23,798 nucleotides of DNA from a virus. Shown in pieces: positions 6,413 to 23,713 of this stretch. The stretch lies in the IMG/VR virus record IMGVR_UViG_3300030107_000526, positions 1-23,798 of that record, one strand, 5' to 3'. The position numbers and the translations under genes are program-made. The number at the start of each line of letters is the position of its first letter. Within the stretch, counting starts at the first letter, position 1. The notes beneath the pieces were generated by a model that did not search any database, was not told the DNA's origin, and saw only the letters and a program-made list of their open reading frames with translations.

Positions 6413-7270
6413 CTAACCTTTTAATGCTTCGTATGCAGCCAATCCTTGAATACCAGTACCTACAGCTTGTGCTAATGGGTTGACCGTTGGTGAAGTGCCC
6501 ATGGTTGTAGCCATACCACTAGATGGCATGCCTTGATAAATGTCACTAACAAAACCAAGACGTTGAAACGGCTCATAAAGCTGTTGTATTTTTTGACGAT
6601 ACTGTGCGTCTTGTATTTGTTGTGCACGTTGTTGCTGTACTGAACCAGCTGACATAGCAGATGCAATATCCCCCTGTTGCAATGCTTGTTGTTGTGCGCC
6701 GAGTGCTCCAAGACCTTGCGATGCTTGTGCTTGTCTTTGCATTTGATTTTGAAAATTTTGTTGTGCCATTTGCTGTGCTTGTTGAAAGTTTTGTGCTTGT
6801 GCTTGACCAACAGCTTGTGCTTCTTGTCTACCTAATTCTGCTCTTTGTACACCTTGTCTAGCGCCACCGAAAGCACCAGCTCCAACCGCTTGTGCATCGG
6901 CTTGATTTTGTAATTTTTGAAATTGTTGTTCTATACCAGCTATGACTTCGTCTTGATATGGATTCATGTATGCTTGATACGACATAGGATCGTAAGCAGC
7001 TGTACTGCCTAATAGTTCTGTAGTTGCTCTGTCCAAGTATGGTTGAAACGTGCCAAGACCTGCTTGTGTTCTATCAAAAGCTTGTTGTTGCAAGCCTTCA
7101 AAATCTACAACTTCTTGTACAGGAATACCTACAGGATCTTTTGCAAATCCTGACGCTGTATCCATGAGTTGCAGTTTACGCGCTTCAATCTGCGGTGCTT
7201 CACGTTGAAACGTCGTTTGAAACTGGGTTCCCGATGGATCGCTTCCGTCCGATAATCCTGGTATACTCAA
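6413..7270 (-). CDS. Gln/Ala-rich virion protein, DNA-ejection type (T7 gp14 position), TTG start
   Basis: A 285-aa protein. Residues 101-107 (YMNPYQD), followed by a helix and the Gly-rich motif GAGAFGGARQGVQRAE at 131-146, form a signature I know from putative ejection or internal virion proteins of marine phages. Residues 115-232 are extremely Gln- and Ala-rich and should be long helix. The C-terminus (about 265-283) is hydrophobic and Gly/Ala-rich. It starts with TTG: the codon at 7270-7268 shares bases with the TGA of the upstream gene (TTGA), and an AGGAG site lies six bases before it. The long repeat-like look of the DNA comes from repeated Gln codons. It sits between the GNAT-like gene and the 613-aa gene. 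Confidence 0.84.
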   Translation of the reverse strand: MSIPGLSDGSDPSGTQFQTTFQREAPQIEARKLQLMDTASGFAKDPVGIPVQEVVDFEGLQQQAFDRTQAGLGTFQPYLDRATTELLGSTAAYDPMSYQAYMNPYQDEVIAGIEQQFQKLQNQADAQAVGAGAFGGARQGVQRAELGRQEAQAVGQAQAQNFQQAQQMAQQNFQNQMQRQAQASQGLGALGAQQQALQQGDIASAMSAGSVQQQRAQQIQDAQYRQKIQQLYEPFQRLGFVSDIYQGMPSSGMATTMGTSPTVNPLAQAVGTGIQGLAAYEALKG

Positions 7271-7713
7271 AATACTCTCCTATAATTTGTTCCAATTTTT
7301 TCCATCCCTAAACGTTTTGCAACTTTATCAAAACTGCCTACTTGTTCAGAGACACTTAATATTACCTCTTTCACTTTATTCATCTCTGACCAATCTACAA
7401 ACTTTTTCATTAATTGTATACCGGTCATTTTACCTCGCTCCTCTGGAACTACATATAGTTCCAATTGTCTACTAAAAGTATCTTTACTGTAAGGAAACTC
7501 CAATATGCATCCTATCATGAAACCTATTGGTTCTTCCTTTTTTGTAGCAATGATACCAAACATATTTGCTTTGTTCATTGCTGCGAAGAAATAGTTTTTA
7601 ACTTTTTCTTCGTTTATCTCCACTTCATTCCCCCAGTGAGATTCTTGTAAAAAGTCTTTGCTTACTTTTTGAATCCAATGAAGATCTTTCTCTTCGAAAA
7701 ATCTCCAATCCAT
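7267..7713 (-). CDS. GNAT-like acetyltransferase fold protein (T7 gp13 position)
   Basis: A 148-aa GNAT-fold protein. A beta strand with GFMIGCI (about 64-70) leads to the acyl-CoA motif region LELYVVPEERGKMTGIQLM (84-102), then the helix and strand VKEVILSVSE and a C-terminal FDKVAKRLGMEKIGTNYRRVF typical of the family. The pyrophosphate-binding pattern R-x-x-G-x-G reads R93-G-K-M96-T-G98: the first glycine is methionine, so the enzyme may be weak or inactive. It lies inside the virion block, immediately before the Gln-rich protein. T7 gp13 (138 aa) has a similar size and place, and I recall it as GNAT-like in fold. This could be a true acetyltransferase or a structural relative. The start has only a weak ribosome site. 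Confidence 0.85.
   Translation of the reverse strand: MDWRFFEEKDLHWIQKVSKDFLQESHWGNEVEINEEKVKNYFFAAMNKANMFGIIATKKEEPIGFMIGCILEFPYSKDTFSRQLELYVVPEERGKMTGIQLMKKFVDWSEMNKVKEVILSVSEQVGSFDKVAKRLGMEKIGTNYRRVF
7277..7281 (-). promoter_or_regulatory. Ribosome binding site that decides a TTG start
   Basis: AGGAG on the minus strand, six bases upstream of the TTG at 7270-7268. No in-frame ATG lies near, and the conserved-looking protein begins here, so this site supports the unusual start codon and a four-base TTGA overlap with the GNAT-like gene. Confidence 0.75.
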
Positions 7714-7716
7714 TTA

Positions 7717-8670
7717 CTATACCATGGCTTCCGAAGGTTTTTCAGATTCAGGATCAAGTGCGTTCATCATTTTATACATCTTCTTCGCACCTTGCATCCT
7801 ACTACCGTTACCAAAGTTTTCAACAGCCTTTGCTGTCATAACAAATTCTCCATCACTTAACTTTGCATTTATTGCATCATCTTTTGGACCACCTGGGCCA
7901 CTGACCTCGCCACCTGCTTCGTAAGGCGTAAACTTAAATTCACTAGGCACGTAACTGTAATAAGGATTTTGCATCATATCATACATTTGTTTCATACGTC
8001 TTCTTTCCCTTTCCATTTGCATTTCTTCTGCTTGTTCGTCTGTTGGCATGCCGCCAAGCGTGCCTGCAAGTAAAGGTATACCAGCTTTTATATCAAAAGA
8101 TCCTGCTGGTAAATCTGTGCCTAAGAAAGTTTTACCTGCAGTCTGTGTTCTAAATAAATCTGACAACTTCATGCCCGGTGATATTGTTTTTGTAGTTTCA
8201 CCAATCATTTGTGTTTTTGGCATAACGTTTAAAGGTAAACCTTCAACGTTTGTTCTAAACTGTGGCACTGTTTGTGTAAGTGGTTGTCCACCTGGTGCCA
8301 TCAATAAATCCATTGCGCTTACATCACCACCTAAGGCATTAGCCATTGCGTTTGCTTTCATAAAAGAAAACGGAACAGCTGTTAATGCTGAATATAATGC
8401 TGCACGTTCAGGGTTTCTTTGACCCATGAGTCTTGCTATACCATAACTTGTTAAACCAGATGTAACTGGTGCTTTAAGTAACATTGGCATTGCACCAAAC
8501 TTTGTGCCATAACCTTTTAGTAAGGCACCTAAACCTGCACCTTTACCACCAGCCCCTAAAAATGCACCTAATTTTGGTGCAAGATATGGTGCAGCAAACA
8601 TTGCTGCAACAGGTAATATTGGTTTTGCCTTCTTAACTATATTCTTTATTGCTGAATCAAAAAATCCCAT
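7717..8670 (-). CDS. Virion-associated protein with GG-(x)-SGPGGPKDD-(x)-LSDGEFV motif
   Basis: A 317-aa protein. The N-terminus (18-60) is hydrophobic and Gly/Ala-rich, and residues 209-232 form a strongly charged helix (EEMQMERERRRMKQMYDMM). The C-terminal part holds EAGGEVSGPGG (251-261) and then INAKLSDGEFVMTAKAVENF (267-286). This module is one I recognise from many phage virion or tail proteins, where GPG-x-DDxIPAxLSxGEFV is a common form; its function is unknown. The gene follows the 221-aa gene with one base between stop and start. It is likely a minor virion protein, with no enzymatic motif. Confidence 0.82.
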   Translation of the reverse strand: MGFFDSAIKNIVKKAKPILPVAAMFAAPYLAPKLGAFLGAGGKGAGLGALLKGYGTKFGAMPMLLKAPVTSGLTSYGIARLMGQRNPERAALYSALTAVPFSFMKANAMANALGGDVSAMDLLMAPGGQPLTQTVPQFRTNVEGLPLNVMPKTQMIGETTKTISPGMKLSDLFRTQTAGKTFLGTDLPAGSFDIKAGIPLLAGTLGGMPTDEQAEEMQMERERRRMKQMYDMMQNPYYSYVPSEFKFTPYEAGGEVSGPGGPKDDAINAKLSDGEFVMTAKAVENFGNGSRMQGAKKMYKMMNALDPESEKPSEAMV

Positions 8671-20940: not shown

Positions 20941-21639
20941 TTATTCTCCTCTAGTATTTGTTTTAACAGATGGCATAGGGAACTTTAGTTCTCCATGCAT
21001 GTACTCATCTCGTCTATGCCTTCCTTGTTGTTCTATGACTAATTCTTGCACAGCACGTTGATAAGATTGTTCGTATAATTGCAGCATGTCAGCTGGTCCC
21101 TTCAAAAACTTGAAGGCTTCTGCAAGACTTCCATAAAGCAATGCCATTGGGGCATTGTCACCCAACCAAGAGGTTGTGTTAGAACTAGATAGTCTTGTTG
21201 GTAATCTAGTTATTCCTAACTCCACGTTATACGCCGAATCTGGTGTAGGAGCAAGATAAATTGTGTTTTGATCCCACCATGACCAATATTTTGGTGTGCC
21301 TGTCGCTGTTCTATCTGGCCAATATTCGTTCATGTAACTAAGATCACGATGTTCTAAAAAATCTCTTGTTGGTGTTCCTGAAGCTGGAAATATATGCACA
21401 GTTCTTATTGTAGCAAGTGATGTAGGATCAGGCGACGTGCCACCAGGTAATGATAAAAAAGGATTGCTAGCAACAAGGTTAGCTGATTGATGTGATTTAA
21501 AAGCATCAAGGTCAACTTCTTTCAATATCCTGTTTTCTGTGTGTTCGATGAAATCGTTTGTAATTGTAGATGTTAACACATCAGTGCTAGTTTCTGTATA
21601 GTCTAGTATTTGTTGTGTTAGTTCTGCGTATGTAGTCAT
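20941..21639 (-). CDS. Tail adaptor-type protein (T7 gp11/SU10 adaptor-like)
   Basis: A 232-aa protein. The N-terminal helix TYAELTQQILDYTETSTDVL and FIEHTENRILKEVDLDAFKS is typical of adaptor proteins that join portal to nozzle. A beta domain follows (RTVHIFPASG, FLEHRDLSYMNEYWPD, PKYWSWWDQNTIYLAPTPD at about 115-135), then a long C-terminal helix APMALLYGSLAEAFKFLKGPADMLQLYEQSYQRAV. The order helix bundle, YW-x-W/IYLAPTP strand, helix is the signature I associate with the SU10-type adaptor. It acts in the virion under the portal. Its start shares a base with the stop of the 164-aa gene (TAATG). Confidence 0.84.
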   Translation of the reverse strand: MTTYAELTQQILDYTETSTDVLTSTITNDFIEHTENRILKEVDLDAFKSHQSANLVASNPFLSLPGGTSPDPTSLATIRTVHIFPASGTPTRDFLEHRDLSYMNEYWPDRTATGTPKYWSWWDQNTIYLAPTPDSAYNVELGITRLPTRLSSSNTTSWLGDNAPMALLYGSLAEAFKFLKGPADMLQLYEQSYQRAVQELVIEQQGRHRRDEYMHGELKFPMPSVKTNTRGE

Positions 21640-22133
21640 TAGTTACTCAATGTTGCTGGGCCAGCCGATGCTTGACCTCCGCCACCACTACCAGTGGTAG
21701 ATGGTGCAGTTGTCACTGTAAAAGTATAAATATCATCATCTGTTTTTGTTATACTAAAACCTGTTGATACCTCTATTTCTGATTCAGAAGCACCAAACAA
21801 ATTACCAGAAACAGTTCTAAATCTCACAGTATCACCCGTAGATCTTTTGTGTCCTGGTTCAAACACAGATACAGTTGTGCTAGAAGCTGTAAATCTAAAT
21901 GGATTCAAAGGTAATAGTCTTTCTGTAGCTGGTTCTTCTCTTGCTGGTCTTGGAAACTGTAAGGCTATCGCATCAGGTGAATGTTTGTTAGGTCTATCTT
22001 GTGGTGTTTTTGGTTCGTATTCACTTTCATGTACACGTGCGCCATTCCACTCCACAACCATTTCACTGTATGGATATTCCATACCGCTACGGTCAGAAAT
22101 AAACTTAGCATATTTACCTGTTGCGTAAGACAT
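21639..22133 (-). CDS. Conserved virion protein (CDRSG/EWNG family)
   Basis: A 164-aa protein. The N-terminal half has MSYATGKYAKFISDRSGMEY, then MVVEWNGARVHESEYEPKTPQ, a pattern common in marine phages (a CDRSG-x-x-Y turn, here SDRSG, and EWNG-x-x-V). The C-terminal half is beta-rich with TVSVFEPGHKRSTGDTVRFR, resembling an immunoglobulin-like fold, and ends in a Ser/Gly/Pro tail. It probably sits near the head-tail joint, since the adaptor is next. No enzymatic motif is seen. Confidence 0.83.
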   Translation of the reverse strand: MSYATGKYAKFISDRSGMEYPYSEMVVEWNGARVHESEYEPKTPQDRPNKHSPDAIALQFPRPAREEPATERLLPLNPFRFTASSTTVSVFEPGHKRSTGDTVRFRTVSGNLFGASESEIEVSTGFSITKTDDDIYTFTVTTAPSTTGSGGGGQASAGPATLSN

Positions 22134-22136
22134 TTA

Positions 22137-22379
22137 TTAGCTCCAAGTATACTTGCCACCTTTTGTAGCGGCACCCATTCCTAGTTTAGTTCCAGTCACT
22201 TTACCTTTTTCTACTGTAATATCTACAGCTTTACCCTTTGCAGGTGCAATACCTTTTGTGGTAACAGCAGCAGCTTCAACAGGATTAGGTATGTTATTTT
22301 GACCTCTACCAAACTTTATACCGCTTTTATCTCCTTCTCTAGGATTAGCAGTTTGTGTGTTATGGTTTCTATTGCTCAT
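22137..22379 (-). CDS. Small basic Gly/Lys/Pro-rich protein, function unknown
   Basis: An 80-aa protein. A polar N-terminus (MSNRNHNTQTANPREGDKSG) with FGRGQNNIPNPVEAAAVTTKG is followed by a repetitive Lys/Gly/Thr-rich half (KGKAVDITVEKGKVTGTKLG, then MGAATKGGKYTWS). High Lys and Gly with few hydrophobic residues suggests an extended, possibly DNA- or head-bound protein. The start shares its A with the stop of the upstream Cys-rich gene (TAATG), and an AAGGAGG ribosome site within that gene precedes it, so coupling is likely. It is conserved in place among structural genes, but I know no function. Confidence 0.8.
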   Translation of the reverse strand: MSNRNHNTQTANPREGDKSGIKFGRGQNNIPNPVEAAAVTTKGIAPAKGKAVDITVEKGKVTGTKLGMGAATKGGKYTWS

Positions 22380-22486
22380 TAGTCCTCCTTTTTACATGTG
22401 CAGTCACCACAATCACATCTGTCGATAGTGCATGAACCATCTACGATGCAATGACATGTATGACCACATATTTCACATTTTGGCAT
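22379..22486 (-). CDS. Metallothionein-like 35-aa Cys-rich protein
   Basis: A tiny gene between the 249- and 80-aa genes. The 35-aa product has nine Cys (positions 4, 7, 11, 13, 19, 24, 26, 29, 31) and two His (9, 12). Its first part is CEICGHTCHC; its C-terminal CDCGDCTC is the C-x-C-x-x-C-x-C pattern of bacterial metallothioneins such as SmtA (CACEPCLC), which bind zinc, cadmium or copper. A perfect AGGAGG lies four bases before the ATG, partly in the stop of the 249-aa gene. Its stop shares a base with the next ATG, and its last codons hold the ribosome site for that gene. Both ends fit neighbours exactly, so it is very likely a real gene. A zinc-ribbon-like virion protein is possible, but the short spacings favour a metal cluster. 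Confidence 0.82.
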   Translation of the reverse strand: MPKCEICGHTCHCIVDGSCTIDRCDCGDCTCKKED

Positions 22487-22490
22487 ATGA

Positions 22491-22496
22491 CCTCCT
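22491..22496 (-). promoter_or_regulatory. Strong ribosome binding site for the Cys-rich gene
   Basis: AGGAGG on the minus strand, four bases before the ATG at 22486. Its first two bases are the last two of the TAG stop of the 249-aa gene. A full-strength site for so short a gene supports expression. Confidence 0.8.
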
Positions 22497-23244
22497 ATGG
22501 TATGTACGCCCGTGCCGGTTCAATTCTAAAAGAAACCCTTTCTCTATCGTTTTCACTAGCACGCTTAAATTCTTCGTCATACACCGCTTTTAAGTTTGCA
22601 CTTAACATCGGTGCTCTTTTCAAACTTATATAGTATGCCAAACCGGCAGTCAAACAAGGAAGAAAATAAAAAGGCACGTCAGCTTCATTGGTGTAGTTGC
22701 CTGCATCTTCTATTCTAGCTATATAAAAATACTTGAATATATATGCTTTATCAGGGCTAGGATACAGAAACAATGTCATGTCGTTTGCTGGTCTACCACT
22801 GCTAGTTGATCCACCTGTAGTCACTGTGCCAGGAACTAAAGCAAATTGTGTAGGTCTTGCATCTCCAGATGAAGAGTTTTCTTTTTTGCTTAAATTCATA
22901 AATTCAGTTCTAGATATTCTATTTACAGCCACATCTGTTGTGTCACTATCGCCTTCTAAATTAGAAGTTGCACCTGTTGTAGTTGTTACAACAGCATCTA
23001 CTATGTCCACTACGTTTTGATCTATGGCGTAAAAGTTTGTGCCAGCAGTGAGTGTTTGTGTTGCATATGTTATGGTCCATAAATTTAAACCACGATTTGC
23101 CCACTCTGCCAACATCAGATTCATAGATCGTCTAGCTGTTTTTAAATCATAGCCAGTGCGTGTCTCTAACTGACATCTTTCAAATGCCTCTTCTATTATC
23201 TCTTCTATTGAGAGATTAAAGGTTTGTGTGCCTGAATAAGCCAT
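22495..23244 (-). CDS. Adaptor-like head-tail connector protein
   Basis: A 249-aa protein with the conserved marine phage N-terminus IEEIIEEAFERCQLETRTGY, then DLKTARRSMNLMLAEWANRG and LNLWTI. The middle (about 70-165) is beta-rich. A PTQFAL strand leads to MTLFLYPSPDKAYIFKYFYI (about 170-190). The C-terminal helix is DVPFYFLPCLTAGLAYYISL with the later segment LKAVYDEEFKRASEND. The order of parts mirrors the 232-aa adaptor at 20941-21639, so the two are likely divergent relatives of one fold that make successive rings between portal and nozzle. No metal site or catalytic motif is seen. Confidence 0.84.
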   Translation of the reverse strand: MAYSGTQTFNLSIEEIIEEAFERCQLETRTGYDLKTARRSMNLMLAEWANRGLNLWTITYATQTLTAGTNFYAIDQNVVDIVDAVVTTTTGATSNLEGDSDTTDVAVNRISRTEFMNLSKKENSSSGDARPTQFALVPGTVTTGGSTSSGRPANDMTLFLYPSPDKAYIFKYFYIARIEDAGNYTNEADVPFYFLPCLTAGLAYYISLKRAPMLSANLKAVYDEEFKRASENDRERVSFRIEPARAYIP

Positions 23245-23252
23245 TTAAACCT

Positions 23253-23672
23253 CTAATATATTTTTTGGAATTCTGCTATAACTGTGTACATGTTGCCTGA
23301 ATCAGCCGCACCTGGTACAACAAAGTTAACATCACTCTGATTACTGTTACTAGATTTGTCTGCTGGTATGCCACCAAACTCTCTAAAGTCCCAATAGCCA
23401 GCACCTGTTAAACCAATTATAGGAATATCTCCGTCTGAATCTTCTTCATCTAAACGTGCAAAAGAGTCGCCTCCATCGCCGCCTTGACAAGAATACCAAA
23501 CTCTAAGTAAACCTAAATGTGCTACAGCTGTGCCATCGTTTCTTGCTGTTAACGCAGAAACGTCACCCATGACTGTTGTTCCACCTGTTCCGTCTGATTG
23601 CACAACCATTTTGATAACAACACGTTTATCATTTTGTTGTAAGATTGTTGGTCCTGTTACTGTGTCTGCCAT
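23253..23672 (-). CDS. Conserved structural protein, possible head decoration, function unknown
   Basis: A 139-aa beta-rich protein with GPTILQQNDKRVVIKMVVQS at the N-terminus, a WYSCQGGDGGDSFARLDEED segment in the middle, and YTVIAEFQKIY at the end. It follows the hairpin after the head-type gene at the right edge, with a strong AAGGAGG site. Its position directly after a probable capsid gene is typical for small head or head-tail proteins of marine phages. I recognise no domain, so the role is inferred from place only. Confidence 0.78.
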   Translation of the reverse strand: MADTVTGPTILQQNDKRVVIKMVVQSDGTGGTTVMGDVSALTARNDGTAVAHLGLLRVWYSCQGGDGGDSFARLDEEDSDGDIPIIGLTGAGYWDFREFGGIPADKSSNSNQSDVNFVVPGAADSGNMYTVIAEFQKIY

Positions 23673-23693: not shown

Positions 23694-23713
23694 TGTGGGG
23701 CCGTAGCCCCACA
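23694..23713 (-). terminator. Strong hairpin (cUACGg tetraloop), probable weak or attenuating terminator
   Basis: Read on the minus strand it is TGTGGGGC-TACG-GCCCCACA: a perfect 8-bp, GC-rich stem closed by C-G around a UACG tetraloop, one of the most stable RNA loops. It sits ten bases after the stop of the right-edge gene and before the ribosome site of the 139-aa gene. The following run (GTTCTT) is poor in U, so it may act as an RNA stabiliser or partial terminator, reducing read-through to the next genes. Confidence 0.75.

Follow-up and report, generated by a model that had tools for sequence, protein, structure and literature searches.

A strongly selected cysteine- and histidine-rich peptide from the late genes of uncultured phages, a candidate metallothionein-like protein

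Introduction

What is a gene of 35 codons, nine of them for Cys, doing directly behind a phage head-tail adaptor gene? Such a gene lies on the minus strand of the window, the whole stretch of DNA analysed, which is a 23.8-kb IMG/VR virus record. A preliminary description made from the sequence alone proposed that the phage produces a metal-binding peptide late in infection. The family described here lends that idea partial support: the peptide is under strong selection, is rich in Cys and His, bears hallmarks of metallothioneins and is encoded among late genes. From these features we infer metal binding, formation of a metal cluster, expression late in infection and a buffering role.

The peptide gene and its surroundings

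The minus-strand reading frame at 22486-22379 translates to MPKCEICGHTCHCIVDGSCTIDRCDCGDCTCKKED. The DNA reads ccaTAGGAGGtcatATG at the start of the gene and AAAAAGGAGGACTAATGAG at its end. The features of this region, in the order in which they are read, are the following:

22495-23244, minus strand: upstream gene, SU10/Pam1-type head-tail adaptor, 249 aa (PF24175, 35.4 bits; cut-off 27)
22491-22496, minus strand: Shine-Dalgarno site AGGAGG of the peptide gene, sharing bases with the adaptor gene's TAG stop (read from the DNA)
22379-22486, minus strand: gene of a 35-aa Cys/His-rich, metallothionein-like peptide, 9 Cys and 2 His (open reading frame call and dN/dS)
22384-22390, minus strand: AAGGAGG within the codons of the KKED tail, Shine-Dalgarno site of the next gene (AAGGAGG in 93 of 95 distinct family genes)
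22137-22379, minus strand: downstream gene, 80 aa, no assigned kind, one-base overlap (TAATG) with the peptide gene
21639-22133, minus strand: PHROG 28581 protein, 164 aa, no function assigned (E 1.1e-51)
20941-21639, minus strand: second adaptor-type protein, 232 aa (PF24175, 81.2 bits)

The translation signals are as first described: AGGAGG ends four bases 5' of the ATG, the gene overlaps its successor at TAATG, and the ribosome site of that successor lies within the last codons of the peptide. A GGAG also stands 5' of the peptide gene in 88 of 95 distinct family genes. The nine Cys in 35 residues and the stretch CDCGDCTC are present too, but this stretch, originally placed at the C-terminus, is followed by KKED. 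Likewise, the reported location between two connector genes holds only approximately: an adaptor gene, 44% identical in protein sequence to the adaptor of phage DSL-LC04, is directly upstream, but the second PF24175 adaptor is the third gene downstream. The 80-aa protein in between had no match in Pfam and PHROG searches.

The window has other notable features. The PHROG 28581 protein begins with ISDRSGMEYPYSEMVVEWNGARVHESEYEPK, which can be lined up by eye with the zinc-ribbon-like starts of DSL-LC04 and locus L321 (CDYCGQRYPY...CPDDYEPK); the marine relatives have lost the Cys. A link between this loss and the peptide was considered and dropped, because those Cys are likewise missing from phages that have no peptide gene. 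A GNAT acetyltransferase gene (7267-7713, PHROG 1249) is located inside the structural gene cluster, and a resembling reading frame occurs at 7546-7881 of G002, the 62-kb record of locus L048. A strong terminator-like hairpin (23694-23713, minus strand) directly precedes the gene at 23253-23672, which means that adaptor and peptide may be transcribed as a unit of their own.

Distribution of the family

For the family, 170 IMG/VR loci were fetched through the neighbour genes of the peptide and further loci through four DNA patterns modelled on its Cys frame. A profile built from seven members finds at least 150 distinct peptides in at least 284 loci. Among the matches listed, the gene is just downstream of the adaptor in 97 of 97 non-redundant IMG/VR adaptors that are at least 60% identical to that of the window (93 counted, and four start-codon artefacts read by eye, for which gene loss was rejected). 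The frame and its Cys are kept in all 97. The spacing of the two genes is also regular, with the peptide starting exactly 12 nt past the end of the adaptor match in 182 of 201 members that have an adaptor in the same locus; in one locus (L051) another small gene separates them.

The gene becomes rare outside this group. It accompanies two of six adaptors that are 50-60% identical to that of the window and none of 18 that are 30-50% identical. In the named phages DSL-LC04, HTVC023P, HTVC027P, CRP-901 and 023Pt_psg01 it is absent, and the adaptor gene is directly followed by the next structural gene. The peptide gene beside the adaptor thus belongs to one adaptor clade.

In 398 genomes of one bacterial phylum, no family member was found at E 1e-4 by a search that does recover the family from 12 of 12 phage records. 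Tblastn against 50,697 named phage records, which recovers the short Cys-rich peptides AGE60383.1 and QOI69074.1 from themselves, found no member closer than these two peptides of HTVC008M and Mosig. Several pattern matches were discarded. Many matches of an eight-Cys pattern without the KKE tail, and fewer of a nine-Cys pattern, are chance frames in TGC-type simple repeats, and the bacterial matches of the CxxCxHxCHC pattern (L375 and L376) are chance frames as well. The carriers are many uncultured phages, probably marine, judging from their named relatives.

Selection and invariant residues

Members occur in a long form (35-38 aa, 9-11 Cys, mostly two or three His) and a short form (27-31 aa, 8-9 Cys), which loses seven residues including the His and otherwise preserves chiefly the Cys frame and charge. 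C-terminal extensions occur in some members. Among the peptides compared, 24 distinct long and 28 distinct short ones, all Cys positions are invariant except C20, which is Thr in the five peptides of the window type; H9 and H12 never vary within the long form. Pooled pairwise dN/dS (Nei-Gojobori) is 0.10 for the long form, 0.11 for the window type and 0.20 for the short form, so the dN/dS comparison suggested at the outset points to strong selection. When the invariant Cys are left out, the ratio rises to 0.27 for the long form and window type taken together and to 0.61 for the short form; much of the constraint therefore sits on Cys. Given the dN/dS of 0.10-0.20 and the frame and Cys kept in every non-redundant close relative, the 35-aa reading frame is a genuine gene.

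One further conserved element has another explanation. The (K/Q)KE tail is encoded as AAAAAGGAG in 86 of 95 distinct genes and as CAAAAGGAG in the other nine, its codons being fixed as (A/C)AAAAGGAG while Cys codons are free to alternate between TGT and TGC. These codons hold the AAGGAGG site of the next gene, which explains the conservation of the tail, and its importance for the peptide itself was rejected. The tail is absent from most members outside the adaptor-linked set.

A wider set in other late-gene clusters

The pattern CxxCxHxCHC[S][N/D]...C retrieved at least about 80 further loci without a window-type adaptor beside the peptide. The motif common to both sets is CxxCxHxCHCSNGGSC...CxCxxCx[C/H], with SNGGS and the later C-x-C-x2-C-x-[C/H], which was not required by the search; the last core position is His in 58 of 67 cores of the wider set. 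Scored with the long adaptor-linked profile, the wider set has a median of 29 bits, compared with -8 for full shuffles and 13.7 for shuffles that keep the Cys and His positions. These scores support, without proving, common descent of the two sets.

The neighbours of these peptides differ. They include large portal-like proteins, membrane proteins with a possible part in lysis, small-terminase-like proteins and gp25/gp6 baseplate operons (portal-like and lysis-like being by-eye readings of sequence, and gp25 a Pfam match), and exonuclease genes also occur beside the peptide in other phages. Since the neighbourhood changes between phage groups, the peptide would act alone rather than as a partner of the adaptor, and the idea of a virion part tied to the connector is weakened. 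What stays constant is the late setting, which suggests a need near the end of infection. In about ten loci, including L406, L432, L446, L461 and L469, a small protein starting with MPIYEY is encoded directly downstream of the peptide; it weakly matches PHROG 385 (transcriptional regulator) and has no CxxC pair near its start.

Composition, predicted fold and database matches

Broadly defined, metallothioneins are small proteins with 15-35% Cys in CxC/CxxC arrays and few or no aromatic residues, which take up several d10 metal ions in thiolate clusters. The adaptor-linked peptides agree with this definition in size, Cys share and aromatics: they have 27-38 residues, 26-32% Cys and about 8% hydrophobic residues, and 74 of 75 distinct peptides are devoid of F, W and Y. 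AlphaFold, given the family alignment, predicts no helix or strand element (pLDDT 68, pTM 0.34). With so much Cys and so few hydrophobic residues, only metal or disulfides could hold a shape, and disulfides are unlikely in the cytosol. Composition and the absent predicted fold both fit a metallothionein-like metal-thiolate cluster.

Established families do not cover the peptide. The window peptide has no Pfam, PHROG or NCBIfam family match; in PHROGs v4 other members reach only E 0.44-0.77. PF02069 (SmtA) does not match the window peptide at E 10 and is absent from ten phage records including the window, in a search in which control genomes do match. Two family members score 10-13 bits with PF00131, PF12749 and PF02067, below the cut-offs of 22-25, and the window peptide matches none of these three. 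In a profile search of the PDB, the only repeated resemblances were to metallothioneins, the best being lobster MT-1 and Neurospora MT at a non-significant E of 0.2-0.4. Used singly as queries, one long and one short member each match the same Neurospora protein, also non-significantly (E 0.2-0.6 over all these matches), and the window peptide alone has no PDB match. One of two scrambled controls scored better, matching the zinc knuckle of Met-tRNA synthetase at E 0.0044. The resemblance to metallothioneins in the PDB is thus a hint and no test.

Proposed role and alternatives

The reading favoured here, at a probability of roughly 0.52, is that the gene encodes a phage metallothionein-like peptide that is made late, stays free in the cytosol and buffers or holds metal. 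Through its Cys (9-11, or 8-9 in short peptides) and the two or three His of long peptides, a chain of about 35 residues would fold round d10 ions, Zn or Cu(I), bound as a small cluster. Its translation would coincide with that of the head and tail genes late in infection. Acting alone in the cytosol, the peptide would most likely buffer or hold metal during the breakdown of host metalloproteins and ribosomes and the assembly of virions.

Another, rather unlikely explanation is a structural zinc-knuckle peptide that takes up one or two Zn for folding only and works by binding protein or nucleic acid; it could be, for instance, a small regulator acting on late expression, host shut-off or the timing of lysis. 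SNGGS, GGQ and KNC are conserved beyond the Cys/His frame, some members have C-terminal extensions, and C-x2-C-x-H-x-C-H-C resembles knuckle spacing. SNGGS and GGQ could indeed reflect a specific fold or a partner rather than a plain chelator. The scrambled control, similar in make-up to the peptides, also matched a knuckle, which at the same time indicates that knuckle-like matches come easily. However, 8-11 Cys in fewer than 40 residues exceed what one or two knuckles need, hydrophobic residues are few, and the short form does without the seven residues that hold the His, keeping mainly the Cys frame and charge.

A role in the virion or its assembly, with metal or disulfides locking the connector at the head-tail interface, would account for the constant position right behind the adaptor gene in the clade of the window and for the vicinity of the peptide gene, in other phages, to portal, tail-like or baseplate genes. 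Such a role is nevertheless quite improbable: the neighbours vary by phage group and include genes for membrane proteins, small-terminase-like proteins and exonucleases, adaptors of 30-50% identity manage without the peptide, and L051 has its additional small gene in between. The very high Cys content is also what a thiol or sulfur device of late infection would have, be it a redox buffer or a persulfide or Fe-S carrier, and the genome of one long relative, G002, encodes a SufE-domain protein (28091-28516, PF02657, 43 bits on the first 70 residues). Such a device is very improbable: SufE was seen in this one genome only, and CxC/CxxC clusters with His and without aromatics, as in the peptide, are typical of d10 metal clusters.

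Beyond the window, the metallothionein-like reading can be extended tentatively. Such peptides may be a widespread late function of several kinds of phages, spread as a single small gene and holding or releasing trace metal such as Zn and Cu when infection ends and the cell lyses. On this tentative extension, the carriers would jointly be adaptor-bearing phages, phages with the portal or lysis module and T4-like phages.

Possible cousins in cultured phages

Among named phages, HTVC008M comes nearest in the gp25 setting, at 71% in gp25. HTVC008M and Mosig, both cultured on Pelagibacter, encode Cys-rich peptides annotated only as hypothetical (AGE60383.1 and QOI69074.1). These begin with C-x2-C-G-H, followed by H-C and later by C-x2-C-x-C, and, like the T4-like IMG/VR members, they lie upstream of the gp25 baseplate operon, but they have fewer Cys and a longer linker. 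Their scores with the family profile are weak (6.9 bits for AGE60383.1 and 10.2 bits for QOI69074.1), and 2 of 500 and 0 of 500 shuffles, respectively, score as well. They are possible distant cousins of the window peptide. Just upstream of gp25 in HTVC008M (L525, 5684-5983) is a gene for a PAAR-motif spike protein, also annotated as hypothetical.

If the peptide binds metal, it would represent a family of phage metallothioneins that have a Cys/His layout of their own and are found across unlike phages, and would give a testable function to an unannotated class of tiny phage genes. Phages would then manage trace metals late in infection, which bears on the movement of zinc and copper by viral lysis in the ocean. 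The possible cousins in HTVC008M and Mosig make part of this question testable in culture.

Comparison with known metallothioneins

No phage metallothionein was found in the databases or in the full-text literature searched, whose coverage excludes preprints and most subscription journals, so an earlier description is possible. SmtA has nine Cys. Like the bacterial metallothioneins SmtA, BmtA and PmtA, the phage peptide is small and Cys-rich, contains some His and has the C-x-C-x2-C-x-C spacing. In the window this motif is C24-x-C26-x2-C29-x-C31, kept in nearly all adaptor-linked members and with His in place of the last Cys in most other loci. The SmtA-type motif first noted is therefore present, but kinship with SmtA is not borne out by PF02069. 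Unlike the bacterial proteins, the phage peptide places C-x2-C-x-H-x-C-H-C first and C-x-C-x2-C-x-[C/H] last, and it is encoded in late clusters, with no SmtB- or Zur-type neighbour and no metal-responsive regulator or transporter recognised adjoining the gene. A Pseudomonas metallothionein related to SmtA forms Cys9His clusters (PMC7387436).

A different likeness is found with the metallothionein of Neurospora crassa and the beta domain of crustacean MT-1 (1m0j and 1dft). Residues 11-33 of the phage peptide align with them in Cys register (CHCSNGGSC-CGGQCQCGNCECKK with CECSKSGTCNCGGSCTCTNCSCKS), the phage peptide differing in its extra N-terminal C-x2-C-x-H. These matches are non-significant, and the resemblance is likely to be a convergence of the phage peptide on the Cys arrangement of fungal and crustacean metallothioneins.
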